Virus record (IMG/VR): IMGVR_UViG_3300021185_000221
Location: 1-29,031 of that record
Length of the DNA stretch: 29,031 nucleotides
Strand: one strand, 5' to 3'
Source: a virus
The notes beneath the pieces were generated by a model, which saw only the letters and a list, made by a program, of their open reading frames with translations, was not told the DNA's origin and did no database searches. Positions 20,469 through 26,706 of this stretch are shown here, in pieces; position 1 is the stretch's first letter, and the number at the start of each line of letters is the position of its first letter. The position numbers and the translations under genes are program-made.

Positions 20469-21146
20469 ATGGAACTATCCGATACTACCATGCAGGTTCT
20501 CAAGAACTATGCGACCATTAACCCGAACATCGTTATCACCGAAGGTAGTACTGTAAAGACTATATCGGTAGCACGGAATGTTCTATCAACCGCAGAACTC
20601 CCCGAAGAGTTTCCTGCATCATTTGGCATCTATGACCTAACAGAGTTTTTGAATGTTCTGTCCTTGGTTGATTCACCCCGACTCACCTTTGAGAAAGACT
20701 ATGTGACTGTCGGAGATTCTACTGGTCGTTCATCGGTGAAGTACTTCTTCTCTGATCCAGAGATGCTTACCAGTCCCGGTAAAGATATTGTCATGCCAGA
20801 TGCCGATGTTAAATTTGTGCTAGATACAGATACTTTGGGCAAAGTCAAACGTGCCGCTGCCGCACTTGGACATGATGAGATTTCTATCACTCCAACCACT
20901 GGTGCGATTCGTTTGTCTGTCATTGACAGTAAGGATGCGACAAGTAATGCATTCTCTATTGATGTAGAGGGTGAGTATCCAGAAGGAGTTGATTTCAACT
21001 TCATTATGAATGTGAGTAACCTAAAAGTAATTAACGAAGACTTTGCTGTGAACATCTCTAAGAAGTTGATCTCGCAGTTTAAATCACAACAATCCGCAAT
21101 AGAATATTATATTGCACTTGAAAAATCATCTACATATGGAGCATAA
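20469..21146 (+). CDS. 45: Sliding clamp gp45
   Basis: 225 residues (T4 gp45 is 228). Family landmarks are the N-terminal MELSDTTMQVLKNYATINPN (T4 starts MKLSKDTTALLKNFATINSG), LPEEFPASFGIYDLTEFLNV near 38-57, and the C-terminal half with DTLGKVKRAAAALGHDEISI. The trimeric clamp tethers polymerase gp43 and also activates late transcription through the C-terminal tails of gp55 and gp33. The ribosome site GAGGA is well placed; the leader is short (about 23 nt) from its own promoter. In T4, RegA represses several replication messages including this one; RegA is encoded at 25602. Confidence 0.96.
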   Translation: MELSDTTMQVLKNYATINPNIVITEGSTVKTISVARNVLSTAELPEEFPASFGIYDLTEFLNVLSLVDSPRLTFEKDYVTVGDSTGRSSVKYFFSDPEMLTSPGKDIVMPDADVKFVLDTDTLGKVKRAAAALGHDEISITPTTGAIRLSVIDSKDATSNAFSIDVEGEYPEGVDFNFIMNVSNLKVINEDFAVNISKKLISQFKSQQSAIEYYIALEKSSTYGA

Positions 21147-21471: not shown

Positions 21472-22410
21472 ATGTCTAAAGAATTCCTATGGGTTGAGAA
21501 GTATCGACCCCGATTGATCAGTACAACCGTACTGCCCCAAGACCTAAAAGACACTTTCCAGAAGATTGTCGATTCGGGTGAAGTCCCTAATATGATGTTC
21601 ACTGGTACTGCGGGTACTGGTAAAACTACGATTGCTCGTGCGATCTGTGACGAACTTGGTCTTGATTATATCATTATCAATGGTTCGGAAGAAGGGAACA
21701 TTGATACCCTGCGGGGTAAGATCAAACAGTTTGCCTCATCCGTTTCTCTCTCTGGTGGTTACAAAGTCGTAATCTTGGATGAGGCAGACTATCTAAACGC
21801 ACAATCCACCCAACCCGCACTGCGTGGATTCATCGAAGAGTTCTCTCAGAACTGTCGATTCATTCTGACCTGTAACTTCAAGAACAAGGTCATCGAACCT
21901 CTACACTCCCGATGTGGTGTGTATGAGTTCAACACATCCAAGAAGTCTATGGCACAACTCTGTGGTGAGTTTATGACTCGACTACAAATCATCCTAGATG
22001 GTGAGGGTGTCAAGTATAACAATGATGTGATTGCAGGACTAATTGGTAAACACGCACCAGACTGGAGACGAGTGCTCAACGAAGCACAACGTCATTCCAT
22101 CTCTGGTAAGTTGGAAACTTCGGTACTCATTAATGATAGTAATGGCAACTATAGTGGTCTTTTTCAATCATTAAAGAGTAAGGATTTCAAGAAGATGCGG
22201 TCATGGGTGGTCAACAATATGGACACCGAACCTGCCGCAATCTTCCGTGGCATCTATGACTCTATGGAAGGAAAGGTACAACCTCAATCCATTCCGCAAC
22301 TGGTATTGATCCTTGCTGATTATCAATACAAGAATGCGTTTGTCGCAGACCACGAACTAAACCTTGTTGCTTGTCTGACCGAATGTATGGCAAATGTGGA
22401 GTTCATATAA
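21472..22410 (+). CDS. 44: Clamp loader large subunit gp44
   Basis: 312 residues (T4 gp44 is 319). AAA+ ATPase: N-terminal FLWVEKYRPR (as in all clamp loaders), Walker A GTAGTGKTT (45-53), Walker B ILDEAD (101-106), sensor 1 LTCNF (132-136) and the arginine-finger motif SRC (146-148), followed by the collar domain. Four gp44 and one gp62 load the gp45 ring. In T4 and most relatives gene 62 follows directly; here it does not, and lies about 2.8 kb downstream. The stop codon lies within a TATAAATA box just before the next gene. Confidence 0.97.
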   Translation: MSKEFLWVEKYRPRLISTTVLPQDLKDTFQKIVDSGEVPNMMFTGTAGTGKTTIARAICDELGLDYIIINGSEEGNIDTLRGKIKQFASSVSLSGGYKVVILDEADYLNAQSTQPALRGFIEEFSQNCRFILTCNFKNKVIEPLHSRCGVYEFNTSKKSMAQLCGEFMTRLQIILDGEGVKYNNDVIAGLIGKHAPDWRRVLNEAQRHSISGKLETSVLINDSNGNYSGLFQSLKSKDFKKMRSWVVNNMDTEPAAIFRGIYDSMEGKVQPQSIPQLVLILADYQYKNAFVADHELNLVACLTECMANVEFI

Positions 22411-22413: not shown

Positions 22414-22616
22414 TGACCATGCCCAACGAACGAAGAGAATCAATAGAACGCACCGAGAAGTTTCTGATTGACTTGTTGAACCCCACGGTAACTCCAAGAG
22501 TTCCTAGTGAGGTTCGTCAACGAGCATACAGTTGTCTCAGGCATTTCCCACGAGAGTATGATATGGAACGTGCCGCAGAGACTTCTCCACAAATCTTCGG
22601 GGAATGGGATGACTAA
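22413..22616 (+). CDS. Unknown small protein after gp44
   Basis: 67 residues from ATG 22413 (or 65 from ATG 22419); a longer frame from 22371 lies inside gp44. Features: a helical RRESIERTEKFLIDLL, then LNPTVTPRVPSEVRQRA and YSCLRHFPREYDMERAAE, ending PQIFGEWDD. I recall the CLRHFP..yDm..AAE block in small proteins of marine T4-like phages, with no known function. It is not gp62, despite the position. The downstream ATPase gene overlaps its end by 8 bases and reads in another frame. Confidence 0.72.
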   Translation: MTMPNERRESIERTEKFLIDLLNPTVTPRVPSEVRQRAYSCLRHFPREYDMERAAETSPQIFGEWDD

Positions 22617-23700
22617 GATTTCTCATCCACCAGTACAACAGGATGAGATTACAAAATCTTTGTCTCTTGCCTTCGAGTATTCCTTTGATGGTGTCTCGGA
22701 GTTCACTGTACCCGATATGCCAGACATCTGTGGTTCTTTTAATATAGGACTCATTGTCGGGGCATCGGGTAGTGGCAAGTCAACCCTACTCAAGAGATTT
22801 GGACAAGAACTGTTTCCCTATTGGTTTGATGATAAGTGTATTGCGTCTCATTTTGATAATGAGGATGAGGCAATGACTCTGATGGGTGCGGTGGGTCTAA
22901 ACTCGGTTCCTACTTGGTTCAGACCGTATAATGTATTGTCTGTCGGTGAACAGTATCGAGCAGACCTATCACGGAGACTTGTAGACAATGCGGTGATTGA
23001 TGAGTTTACCTCGGTGGTGAACAGATCAGTTGCCAAGTCGTGTGCCCACTCAGTGGCAAAACATATTCGTAAAGAGGACATACAAGGTGTCGTGTTCTCA
23101 TCGTGTCATTATGATATCGCAGAATGGTTAGAACCAGACTGGATATATGACACTGCGACTGGGGAACTCACCTATAGGGGGTCACTTCATCGACCAACTA
23201 GGAGACCCGAAATCAAACTTGACATCATTCCATGTGGGGTCGAAGCGTGGTCAATGTTCAAAGACCATCACTATCTGACCGAGGATATAAATACATCTGC
23301 CAAACATTGGTTGTGTTGGTGGGGTGATGTTGTGGTAGGATTCGCATCGGCAATACCGTTTCCAAGTGGAACACTCAGGAATGCGTTCCGAGGACACCGA
23401 ACAGTGGTACTGCCAGATTTCCAAGGATTGGGTATAGGAGTAAGACTGAGTGATGCGATAGCACAGATACACTTGGATGAAGGGAAAAGATATTTCAGTA
23501 AAACCGCACACCCAAGGATGGGTAAGTATAGGAACGAGTCGAAACTATGGAAACCGACATCTAAGAATATGCGAGTGAGACAGCATAGTGTAACCGAAAA
23601 CAGTGAAGACCGAATGTGGGTTGCCCGAAACTGTTTCTCTTATTCTCACGAGTACATAGGTGATACGACTCATAAAAAAATCAGGATATTGAACGTATAG
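22609..23700 (+). CDS. ABC-type ATPase fused to a GNAT acetyltransferase domain
   Basis: 363 residues from ATG 22609 (GGGGA upstream; the open frame to 22507 overlaps the previous gene). Residues 1-195 are an ABC ATPase: Walker A VGASGSGKST (50-59), signature LSVGEQYRADLSRRL (110-124), Walker B AVIDEF (128-133) and an H-loop SCH (165-167). Residues 205-363 are a GNAT domain: FKDHHYLTEDIN (217-228), WWGDVVVGFASAIPFPSG and the acetyl-CoA site VVLPDFQGLGIGVRL (266-280), then GKRYFSKTAHPRMGKYR. This architecture is COG2401; its function is unknown. The GNAT part resembles the superfamily that includes phage Mu Mom, so nucleic-acid modification is one possibility. No transmembrane partner is nearby, so transport is unlikely. 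Confidence 0.88.
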   Translation: MTKISHPPVQQDEITKSLSLAFEYSFDGVSEFTVPDMPDICGSFNIGLIVGASGSGKSTLLKRFGQELFPYWFDDKCIASHFDNEDEAMTLMGAVGLNSVPTWFRPYNVLSVGEQYRADLSRRLVDNAVIDEFTSVVNRSVAKSCAHSVAKHIRKEDIQGVVFSSCHYDIAEWLEPDWIYDTATGELTYRGSLHRPTRRPEIKLDIIPCGVEAWSMFKDHHYLTEDINTSAKHWLCWWGDVVVGFASAIPFPSGTLRNAFRGHRTVVLPDFQGLGIGVRLSDAIAQIHLDEGKRYFSKTAHPRMGKYRNESKLWKPTSKNMRVRQHSVTENSEDRMWVARNCFSYSHEYIGDTTHKKIRILNV

Positions 23701-24182: not shown

Positions 24183-24548
24183 ATGGATTATCAAACAGAT
24201 GTAGAAACTTTTATGATGGCAGGGCAACAAGACTATCCTGACTTTGGGGGACTTGAATCTGATCAAGCACAACTCTACATGAACCTAATCAGTGAGGAGT
24301 ATATTGAGACACTCCAAGCATTCAAAAACAAAGACATTGTAGAAGTCGCAGATGGTCTTGCCGATATGGTATGGGTCATCATGGGTATGGCGTCCACCTT
24401 AGACATCCCCTTTGATACGGTCTGGAACGAAGTCAAGGCATCCAATATGTCTAAGTTCGTTGACGGTAAAGTGGTCAAGGACGAGAACGGTAAGATTATG
24501 AAACCTGACGGATACTTCCGTCCTAACATAAAGAAGTTGATGGAATGA
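24183..24548 (+). CDS. MazG-like NTP pyrophosphohydrolase
   Basis: 121 residues, all-alpha NTP pyrophosphatase fold. The metal-binding acidic residues are visible in ISEEYIETLQAF (about 36-47, E-E-x-x-E) and EVADGLADMVWVIMGM (about 54-69, E...D), and the NMSKFVDGKVVKDENGKIMK segment with PDGYFRP follows, typical of phage MazG/PRA-PH-like proteins. It would hydrolyse a nucleoside triphosphate or (p)ppGpp-like substrate to the monophosphate; phage versions are thought to adjust nucleotide pools or alarmone signalling. It starts one base after the small membrane gene and overlaps the next gene by four bases. Confidence 0.88.
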   Translation: MDYQTDVETFMMAGQQDYPDFGGLESDQAQLYMNLISEEYIETLQAFKNKDIVEVADGLADMVWVIMGMASTLDIPFDTVWNEVKASNMSKFVDGKVVKDENGKIMKPDGYFRPNIKKLME

Positions 24549-24742
24549 TTAAATATGTATTTGAAGATGAGATACAGGACAATATCAGAGTAGACTCTAT
24601 GGGTAATAGACTCTGGAAAGAGACCGATGAGTATGTGATCGTTCTTGGTAAAGAGAAACCTAGACCTATACACACCCCAATAGCACTGGTCTGGAACGAT
24701 GGTCAGTGGGTAGACAAACAACTGGAGTTTGACTTTGGATAA
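24545..24742 (+). CDS. Unknown 65-residue protein
   Basis: Overlaps the MazG gene by four bases (ATGA). Probably all beta: MIKYVFEDEIQDNIRVDSMG, ETDEYVIVLGKEKPRPIHTP, IALVWNDGQWVDKQLEFDFG. The ending QLEFDFG resembles a short clamp-binding or exposed acidic peptide, but no claim is made. Not recognised. The last codons contain the ribosome site (GGAG) and TTG start of the dCMP deaminase gene. Confidence 0.72.
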   Translation: MIKYVFEDEIQDNIRVDSMGNRLWKETDEYVIVLGKEKPRPIHTPIALVWNDGQWVDKQLEFDFG

Positions 24743-25199
24743 GTGGGATGTCGCACATCTAGAAGTTGCAAAGACTTACGCACAACTATCATCTGCAAGA
24801 AGGATGAAGGTCGGTGCGGTCATAGTAAAAGACAACCGAATCATCTCTATTGGTTACAATGGTATGCCTAGTGGTTGGGACAACAACTGCGAAGATGAAA
24901 TAAAATCTGGTAACACTGGATACGGTAGAAAACTAAAAACTAAAAAGGAAGTTCTTCATGCGGAATCGAATGCAATCACGAAGGTTGCAAAGTCAACGGA
25001 ATCGGCGGAGGGTGCAGTTCTTTACACAACGTGTGCGCCATGCATCGACTGTGCCAAACTCATCCACCAAGCAGGAATCAAACGAGTTGTCTATGGACAC
25101 AACTATAAGTCTGAAGAAGGATTGACTTTCCTTGATAAGTGTGGTATAGTACTTGACACATCAACCGAAAAACCTTGGCAACGGAGTTTATACCCCTAA
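24735..25199 (+). CDS. Deoxycytidylate deaminase
   Basis: 154 residues from TTG 24735, which has GGAG seven bases upstream; TTG 24729 is an alternative two codons earlier. Zinc-dependent deaminase motifs: MKVGAVIVKDNRIISIGYNG (about 21-40), HAESNAI with the zinc His and catalytic Glu, and TTCAPCIDCAKLI with the two zinc cysteines (P-C-x-x-C). It converts dCMP to dUMP, feeding thymidylate synthesis and the dNTP pool. T4 has such an enzyme (cd), there elsewhere in the genome. A TTGACT-N17-TATAGT promoter lies within the 3' part of this gene. The stop overlaps the gp62 ATG (TAATG). Confidence 0.92.
   Translation: MDKWDVAHLEVAKTYAQLSSARRMKVGAVIVKDNRIISIGYNGMPSGWDNNCEDEIKSGNTGYGRKLKTKKEVLHAESNAITKVAKSTESAEGAVLYTTCAPCIDCAKLIHQAGIKRVVYGHNYKSEEGLTFLDKCGIVLDTSTEKPWQRSLYP
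25122..25150 (+). promoter_or_regulatory. Sigma70-type promoter inside the deaminase gene
   Basis: TTGACT (25122-25127), 17-nt spacer, TATAGT (25145-25150) with TGG in front. The spacer shares TGATAAGTGTGG-like bases with the gp46 promoter. It could drive gp62 and regA separately. Confidence 0.55.
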
Positions 25200-25576
25200 T
25201 GAATCCCTTTGATTATGTAAATGCGATTAACTATTCCAAGAAAGACATCATGGTAACTCGTGATGACGAGAAGGCATACAATGGTTTTATGGTAAACCGT
25301 TCACTGTCTTACTTCTCTGATACTGTTGTTATCGCAAATGAGATGAACAAGTGCCACCACCTAGACTCACGTCTACAATTTTCTTTTCTTATAAATATCA
25401 TTAGGAAACGGAAACGTTTCTCTAAATGGGTAAAACCTGAATTAGAAAATGACCTTGAGTCGGTGAAAGAATATTATGGATATAGTAATGAAAAGGCACG
25501 ACAAATACTATCCCTCTTATCACCTTCTCAAATTAAACAAATAAAAGAAAAGGTGAATAAAGGTGGAAGAAAGTAA
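25199..25576 (+). CDS. 62: Clamp loader small subunit gp62
   Basis: 125 residues from ATG 25199, overlapping the deaminase stop. T4 gp62 is longer (187 aa) and barely similar, but the block structure is that of cyanophage and other marine gp62 proteins: MNPFDYVNAINYSKKDIMV, FMVNRSLSYFSDTVVIANEM, LQFSFLINIIRKRKRFSKW, VKEYYGYSNEKARQILSLL and a K-rich end with NKGG. It forms the 4:1 clamp loader with gp44, encoded 2.8 kb upstream; the two are normally adjacent. RegA follows directly, as it does in T4. The assignment is from memory of that family and the regA neighbour. Confidence 0.85.
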   Translation: MNPFDYVNAINYSKKDIMVTRDDEKAYNGFMVNRSLSYFSDTVVIANEMNKCHHLDSRLQFSFLINIIRKRKRFSKWVKPELENDLESVKEYYGYSNEKARQILSLLSPSQIKQIKEKVNKGGRK

Positions 25577-25601
25577 CTTAGTATCATGGAGTCCTGTGAG
25601 T

Positions 25602-25973
25602 ATGCTAGAGATCACTCTGGCAGAACCCGATGATTTCCTCAAAGTGCGTGAAACTCTAACCAGAATCGGAGTGGCATCACGCAAAGAACAAAAACTGTTT
25701 CAGTCGTGTCACATTCTACATAAGCAGGGAAGGTACTATATCGTACACTTCAAAGAACTGTTTATCTTGGATGGTAAGAAAGCAAACCTAGAGAAGTCAG
25801 ACGTAGAGAGACGTAATACCATTGCGACATTATTGTCGGACTGGGGACTCGTTGAGATACAGAACAAGGAAGTCGCAGTAGAGTGTGCGCCCCTAAGACA
25901 GATCAAGATCATTGGATTCAAAGACAAAGACCAGTGGGAGTTGTGTCCCAAATATAACATAGGTAATAAGTGA
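25602..25973 (+). CDS. regA: Translational repressor RegA
   Basis: 123 residues from ATG 25602 (T4 RegA is 122). Strong match to T4: MLEITLAEPDDFLKVRETLT (T4 MIEITLKKPEDFLKVKETLT), QSCHILHKQGRYYIVHFKEL, LLSDWGLVEI and the end WELCPKYNIGN (T4 WKLVPKYTIGN). RegA binds near start codons of early and replication messages, including gp44 and gp45 in T4, and also represses itself. An alternative GTG start at 25563 adds 13 residues, has a better AAAGG ribosome site and overlaps gp62; I keep the ATG because it aligns with T4. The stop overlaps the next ATG. Confidence 0.95.
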   Translation: MLEITLAEPDDFLKVRETLTRIGVASRKEQKLFQSCHILHKQGRYYIVHFKELFILDGKKANLEKSDVERRNTIATLLSDWGLVEIQNKEVAVECAPLRQIKIIGFKDKDQWELCPKYNIGNK

Positions 25974-26139: not shown

Positions 26140-26706
26140 ATGATAGGGTTTGAAACTCATAAAGAAGAGATTCGAAACAAGGTATATTGGTGGGGCCCTA
26201 AACAAGACATCAATTGGTCTTGGGATGAGGCGATGGAACTCATTGACACTCATCCTGAAGACTTGTACGATTGGAATAGAGAGAAGAATCGACTAGGTTG
26301 TAATAGTTTTCATCTACGTGATTCTGCGCCTCAAATTGCAAAAGACATTCATAGAGAGATGCATGAGTTCTTTGTACTTCCCGCACCAAAGAAGGATACC
26401 TACACGAAAGGTCTTCCCCACGTTACAAACATTGCGTTTTGTGGATTTGGTCAGGCGTCTGGTTCGTACCCTAGACATTGTGACAGGATGGATGTGTTCC
26501 TACTTCAGATGATCGGTGAGTGCAAGATCACCATCGGTTACAATGAAGAACCGAGGAACGCAGATCAGGTTCATATTATGCAGCCAGGCGAATGCGTGTT
26601 TCTTCCAAGAGGAACATGGCATCAACTAGAACCATCAGTATCACGAGTCACATTCTCGTTTGGATTTGAGAGTGATCAAGATTGTGACCCCTCCGATTAT
26701 CTCTAA
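26140..26706 (+). CDS. Cupin/JmjC-like Fe(II) 2-oxoglutarate oxygenase (putative)
   Basis: 188 residues. The C-terminal half has the double-stranded beta helix pattern of cupin-type oxygenases: SYPRHCDRMDVFLLQMIGEC (about 108-127) gives an H-x-D pair followed by D-x-F-x-x-Q and G, as in JmjC/ribosomal oxygenases, and ECVFLPRGTWHQLEPS (about 149-164) supplies the distal histidine. The N-terminal half (WWGPKQDINWSWDEAMELID) is helical. It may hydroxylate a protein, nucleotide or small molecule; the substrate is not readable, and a non-oxygenase cupin is possible. The ribosome site is weak. It lies between the regA unit and a terminator-bounded gene. Confidence 0.7.
   Translation: MIGFETHKEEIRNKVYWWGPKQDINWSWDEAMELIDTHPEDLYDWNREKNRLGCNSFHLRDSAPQIAKDIHREMHEFFVLPAPKKDTYTKGLPHVTNIAFCGFGQASGSYPRHCDRMDVFLLQMIGECKITIGYNEEPRNADQVHIMQPGECVFLPRGTWHQLEPSVSRVTFSFGFESDQDCDPSDYL

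Follow-up and report, generated by a model that had tools for sequence, protein, structure and literature searches.

In the window analysed here, the whole 29,031 nucleotides of IMG/VR virus record IMGVR_UViG_3300021185_000221, an uninterrupted open reading frame of 363 amino acids (22609-23700, + strand) encodes an ABC-type ATPase fused to a GNAT domain. The identified neighbours of this gene, assigned with Pfam and PHROG, are replication and nucleotide genes, and the locus reads as follows.

20469-21146, flank: gp45 (PHROG and Pfam)
21472-22410, + strand, flank: gp44, clamp-loader large subunit (PHROG and Pfam)
22416-22616, + strand: BPSL0761-family ORF of 66-67 amino acids (NF041728, E 6.4e-17)
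22609-23700, + strand: ABC-ATPase/GNAT fusion protein, phrog_11143 (PHROG, E 2.8e-107)
24183-24548, + strand: MazG/PRA-PH-like pyrophosphohydrolase (Pfam)
24729-25199, + strand: dCMP deaminase (Pfam)
25175-25576, + strand: gp62, clamp-loader small subunit (PF16790, E 1.2e-11; phrog_225, E 3e-43)
25563-25973, flank: RegA (PHROG and Pfam)

A sequence-only reading had placed such a fusion between clamp-loader genes, and the positions of T4-type gp44 and gp62, with the MazG-like and dCMP-deaminase genes in the same interval, confirm this. An alternative GTG start in the same frame at 22507 would give a protein of 397 amino acids; the ATG at 22609 appears preferable, as it agrees with the homologues and with the 8-nt overlap between the fusion gene and the preceding BPSL0761-family ORF. 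The latter is probably not part of the system, and in relatives (L003-L007) its position is taken by MazG. Beside regA lies a 188-aa JmjC/cupin-like protein (26140-26706; PF08007, E 1.4e-9), which may hydroxylate protein or nucleic acid and for which a relative was seen in only one named phage, C48C1.

The gp44-gp62 interval as a variable slot

In four related contigs (L003, L004, L006 and L007) the ABC-GNAT gene likewise lies between gp44 and gp62, beside MazG and dCMP deaminase. Across 80 relatives found through gp44, this interval ranged from an overlap to about 2.5 kb and its contents varied, with MazG and dCMP deaminase as frequent members. Contigs whose gp44 is 94-99% identical to that of the window carry other ORFs instead of ABC-GNAT; in one of them (L207, gp44 99% identical) a 175-aa ORF replaces it. 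The family gave no match in five long relatives (G005-G009, 144-149 kb), whose records may be incomplete. This marks ABC-GNAT as an accessory gene of patchy distribution, and the gp44-gp62 interval as a variable slot. In another phage, an ABC-GNAT remnant of only about the first 45 residues adjoins thymidylate synthase (L065:7989-8150) and looks like a sign of gene loss.

The slot ORFs of two near relatives (L207:1975-2502 and L225:2047-2601, 175-184 amino acids) gave no PHROG or family match; by eye, their 'IDIKT' stretch resembles a PD-(D/E)XK nuclease. If they are nucleases, their alternation with a DNA modifier would make sense.

Because the slot varies and relatives with a 94-99% identical gp44 do without the gene, its location is uninformative about a replication target. 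The replication cluster had been taken in the sequence-only reading to imply such a target; that step is not supported, the more so as most relatives lie beside a terminase gene.

Two conserved domains in one protein

The phrog_11143 match covers residues 9-355, that is, both domains; the PHROG entry carries no assigned function. By tblastn, the window protein is 41% identical to its relative in Tenacibaculum phage pT24 and 47% identical to PX29p085, and full-length similarity to the family extends across both domains. The predicted structure (pLDDT 84.6) combines an ABC fold with a GNAT fold. Aligning 33 homologues, we found the catalytic motifs of both domains to be invariant or almost so, which bears out the earlier description of an intact Walker A, signature, Walker B and H-loop and of a well-formed acetyl-CoA site. 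The domains and motifs map as follows.

22609-23184, + strand: compact ABC-type ATPase domain, about residues 1-192 (alignment and predicted structure)
22759-22782, + strand: Walker A GASGSGKS, residues 51-58 (G51, G54, G56 and K57 invariant)
22936-22953, + strand: ABC signature LSVGEQ, residues 110-115 (L110, S111 and G113 invariant)
22990-23007, + strand: Walker B AVIDEF, residues 128-133 (D131, E132 and F133 invariant)
23104-23142, + strand: H-loop and family-specific CHYDIAEWLEPDW motif, residues 166-178 (alignment of 33 homologues; C166, H167, Y168, D169, I170, E172, W173, L174 and W178 invariant)
23200-23697, + strand: GNAT domain, residues 198-363 (PF00583; domain model pLDDT 85.9)
23266-23274, + strand: HHY motif, residues 220-222, aligned to the invariant H48-Y49 of Mom (alignment and profile comparison)
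23422-23439, + strand: acyl-CoA pyrophosphate loop QGLGIG, residues 272-277 (alignment)

In seven relatives (L046, L047, L048, L057, L068, L069 and L070) ABC and GNAT are separate ORFs, adjoining or overlapping, so the fusion itself seems not to be needed for function.

Pfam ABC_tran gave only a weak P-loop match (E 2.7e-4, under the gathering score); it is the family alignment that establishes the ABC class (Walker A G51-x4-GK57-S, LS-x-GE, D131-E132 and H167). The sequence-only reading had called this domain SMC-type. We rejected an SMC/Rad50/RecN-type ATPase, since the spacing from K57 in Walker A to S111 in the signature, 54-63 residues in the 33 homologues, leaves no room for a coiled coil; the best structural matches to this compact domain are transporter-type nucleotide-binding domains. 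In the family alignment, judged by eye, no glutamine occupies the usual Q-loop position, and the window protein thus lacks this mark of an ABC transporter ATPase. As regards a permease partner, the neighbours that could be identified belong to replication and nucleotide metabolism. These features bear on the idea that the protein is a defence or superinfection-exclusion factor, a small-molecule acetyltransferase or a transporter ATPase that acylates no nucleic acid. Matches in PADLOC and to transporter ATPases, the accessory slot and the patchy distribution would agree with it, but both sets of matches are weak, those in PADLOC being mostly to the P-loop only, and the short spacing, the missing Q-loop glutamine and the DNA modifiers among the operon partners described below make it highly improbable.

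The GNAT domain was recognized by Pfam Acetyltransf_1 (PF00583, residues 212-295, E 1.1e-6, above the gathering score), and its invariant residues in the family alignment are Q272-G273-x-G275-x-G277, R264 and H221-Y222. Other substrates of GNAT domains include proteins and small molecules. When the GNAT model was compared alone, many GNATs matched about equally (Z 11-13), and the matches (Foldseek, VIA) were generic: IAA acetyltransferase, RimI and SpeG, together with N-terminal acetyltransferases. Since so many match alike, the modelled fold gives no indication of the substrate, and DNA, protein and small-molecule substrates are not told apart by these structural matches.

A protein target is one alternative to be weighed here: the enzyme could be a protein acetyltransferase like Rac of phiKMV, regulated by its ABC domain and acting on host RNA polymerase or on a replication or host defence protein. 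Phage GNATs that act on proteins have been described (PMC7824862), RimI and N-terminal acetyltransferases are among the closest solved folds, and the window gene sits among replication genes. Against this, the variability of the gp44-gp62 interval lowers the case for a replication protein, and the slot sharing and gene swap reported below favour DNA; we regard this alternative as improbable.

The GNAT domain had also been described as Mom-like. A motif in common with Mom stands: the His-Tyr pair in the N-terminal part of the domain is invariant in both. Membership is not supported, in that the Mom family profile PF25680 gave no match in the window protein at E<=0.1, while the same profile does match Mom of phage Mu and the Mom proteins of two contigs (L011 and L164). 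A comparison by hhalign with a Mom alignment gave a probability of 15% (E 0.0018) over 46 columns that include the HHY motif. Mu Mom (8bv8) was not among the 50 matches listed for the GNAT model, a listing that does not exclude likeness. With no PF25680 match, and with a canonical QxxGxG loop that Mom lacks, the GNAT domain does not appear to belong to the Mom family.

ParB-linked relatives and a gene-for-gene replacement

Named carriers of the family infect Aeromonas, Vibrio, Pseudomonas, Streptococcus, Lactococcus, Gordonia, Tenacibaculum and Leptospira, and many planctomycete contigs carry members in prophage-like loci. Outside the clade of the window protein, the gene usually comes right after a ParB-like gene, mostly with an overlap: this holds for 34 of the 48 phage or viral clusters for which it could be determined, and for 65 of 75 such bacterial or archaeal contigs. 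Downstream genes in the latter are mostly terminases, which identifies these loci as (pro)phages. In one Gemmataceae contig (L340), ParB, ABC and GNAT form a triple fusion in a single 611-aa ORF. The paper on LE3/LE4 classes ParB and ABC among the replication genes and nowhere mentions restriction.

We took a census of the fused or next-gene partners of ParB at 80 IMG/VR loci, all relatives of one ABC-GNAT-linked ParB; the single query biases the census toward relatives of that ParB, not toward any partner. The partners were DPPY methylases (32 by profile, 2 by motif), ABC-GNAT-type ATPases (13), TGT-like proteins (13), TAGT glycosyltransferases (6), Mom (5), C5 methylases (2) and radical-SAM-like proteins (2), and scarcely anything else. 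Within one cluster of near-identical ParBs, some members are joined to ABC and others to a methylase. Mom genes of the non-Mu type in IMG/VR and in Psychrobacter phage Y8A have an overlapping upstream ParB, as ABC-GNAT does, and in Y8A this ParB-linked Mom sits before the terminase; Mu-type Mom loci gave no ParB match. In one phage contig (L011), Mom and ABC-GNAT genes lie near each other. These ParB-like neighbours show association rather than substrate.

Two of the partner classes contain further candidates. TGT/queuine-transferase-like proteins linked to ParB (L163, L169, L170, L173, L174, L175, L178, L180, L186, L187 and L197; phrog_887 for L173 and L174) are probable deazaguanine inserters. 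The ParB-linked radical-SAM-like proteins of L204 (3554-4576) and L206 belong to phrog_13321, which has no assigned function, and are candidate DNA modifiers of other chemistry.

TmcA, in which an ATPase and a GNAT acetylate a nucleic-acid base, offers a precedent for ATP-driven acetylation of RNA, and among the partners in the ParB census, the TGT-like proteins come from a superfamily whose name refers to tRNA modification. An enzyme acting in this way on phage or host tRNA is nevertheless very improbable: the ATPase of TmcA is a helicase module and not an ABC domain, most ABC-GNAT relatives adjoin a terminase gene, and the gene changes places with DNA enzymes.

One such exchange is seen in Aeromonas T4-like phages, of which PX29 and Aeh1 are closely related. 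In PX29, ABC-GNAT (L067:5947-7125) is the sole gene of its interval; the corresponding interval of Aeh1 and Ah1 is taken up by a TAGT glycosyltransferase (PF20691, E 3.6e-44) plus an ORF of 66 amino acids, and nothing else. The flanks align right to the edges of the interval at 74-79% identity, with about 78% between PX29 and Aeh1. In these phages, ABC-GNAT replaces a DNA glycosyltransferase gene for gene.

As the TAGT glycosyltransferase is itself a second-step enzyme, the swap also bears on the idea that the GNAT acylates a base already modified, adding a second tailoring step to an amino- or hydroxyl-bearing base made by another pathway. Companion chemistry exists in some phages: in Pseudomonas phage Komp_PAO1_1 a formyltransferase gene (PF00551, L073:5984-6601) overlaps the end of ABC-GNAT. 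In the window, however, the profiles used found no other modification gene, and the genes right after the ParB/ABC-GNAT operons are mostly terminases and not second modifiers. We consider a second-step role unlikely. The Komp_PAO1_1 formyltransferase-domain protein may supply or transfer a formyl group.

The window gene itself has no ParB gene directly upstream, and a profile search found no ParB match in the window. In a tree of 112 proteins built with a quick method, the window protein falls within a set of 16 (SH-aLRT 98), 15 of which are without ParB; the set includes PX29, Vibrio phage VmeM-32 and Nonlabens phage P12024S. The complete records of these three phages and of jumbo phage pT24 likewise gave no ParB match. 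As other full-length members also lack ParB, its absence does not exclude the window protein from the family. In Komp_PAO1_1 the upstream match is to the C-terminal module of ParB only, so ParB seems to be modular and dispensable. The ParB link, the strongest of the operon arguments, applies to the window only through homology and the PX29 swap.

A predicted DNA acyltransferase and its known counterparts

Our comparisons strongly indicate DNA as the substrate, because of the PX29/Aeh1 swap, the ParB slot shared with DNA modifiers, the ParB-ABC-GNAT triple fusion, the placement of most relatives before terminase and the presence of Mom and ABC-GNAT together in L011. The sequence-only reading had proposed acylation of DNA, RNA or a replication protein; of these, gene-swap and operon evidence favour DNA, with evasion of restriction, and not a replication target. 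The earlier interpretation is therefore partly supported, about half of it being right, and the observation beneath it is confirmed.

We predict that the fusion is very probably a DNA-disguising enzyme. It is likely that it modifies phage DNA by combining an ATP-dependent clamp with a GNAT that acylates a base, so that packaged DNA resists host nucleases. Two ATPase domains would close head to tail around ATP and form a clamp on phage DNA. By analogy with ABC proteins that work on DNA, the clamp may take hold of the duplex and deform it, bringing a base into the GNAT site, where an acyl group would be moved from acyl-CoA to the presented base; ATP hydrolysis would then free the product, and the acylated DNA, once packaged, would withstand host nucleases. 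In the ParB-less clade, targeting would have to rest with the ABC domain or with a further protein. The intact motifs are observed; the substrate (DNA), the clamp action of the ATPase, the acyl donor, the base acylated and a benefit against restriction are inferred. With somewhat less confidence, we favour an acyltransferase driven by an ABC ATPase that makes an as yet undescribed acylated nucleobase in phage DNA: in most relatives, the triple fusion among them, as a ParB-guided module acting before packaging, and in large lytic T4-like phages such as that of the window, without ParB.

Both the family and the prediction that it acylates DNA are already published, and the window protein is a further member. 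Iyer et al. 2021 recount a prediction made in 2013 that a GNAT coupled with an ABC ATPase adds an acyl group, of a kind not characterised, to a DNA base, and give phage pT24 as an example (PMC7824862); a 2021 review of Tevenvirinae bases calls PX29p085 a presumptive DNA modifier, its base not known (PMC8056088). The earlier statement that this architecture has no established function is accurate experimentally, in that the literature searched yielded no experimental test of the family or its chemistry in any carrier, but it passed over this prediction. To these two papers we add the exact PX29/Aeh1 displacement, the ParB-partner census including Mom, the ParB-ABC-GNAT triple fusion, the ParB-less clade and the variable gp44-gp62 slot. 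With ABC-GNAT in PX29 and TAGT in Aeh1 at one locus, the old prediction becomes directly testable in cultured phages. If it is correct, the enzyme would be an ATP-driven DNA base acyltransferase, a kind for which we found no characterised example, and would probably provide a barrier to host nucleases spread over phages of very different hosts.

The closest counterparts are the named carriers themselves: pT24 and PX29p085 belong to the same protein family (phrog_11143) with the same predicted base acylation, whereas the window gene comes from a different, marine T4-like lineage and lies between gp44 and gp62. The TAGT glycosyltransferases share the PX29/Aeh1 locus and the ParB-partner slot with ABC-GNAT, and ParB-linked phage DNA methylases share that slot, but the catalytic domains and chemistries of both are unrelated to those of ABC-GNAT. 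The proposed enzyme may be likened to Mom of phage Mu in outcome and to TmcA in mechanism. Mom (PF25680; methylcarbamoylase, PDB 8bv8) belongs to the same GNAT superfamily, and Mom genes also occupy the slot between ParB and terminase; Mom has neither an ATPase domain nor a QxxGxG loop, whereas the window protein has both, the loop in canonical form. The tRNA N4-acetylcytidine synthases TmcA and Kre33 couple an ATPase to a GNAT that acts on a nucleic-acid base, as proposed here, but with a helicase-type ATPase and an RNA substrate; the likeness to the ABC-GNAT protein is drawn from their described domains and substrates.
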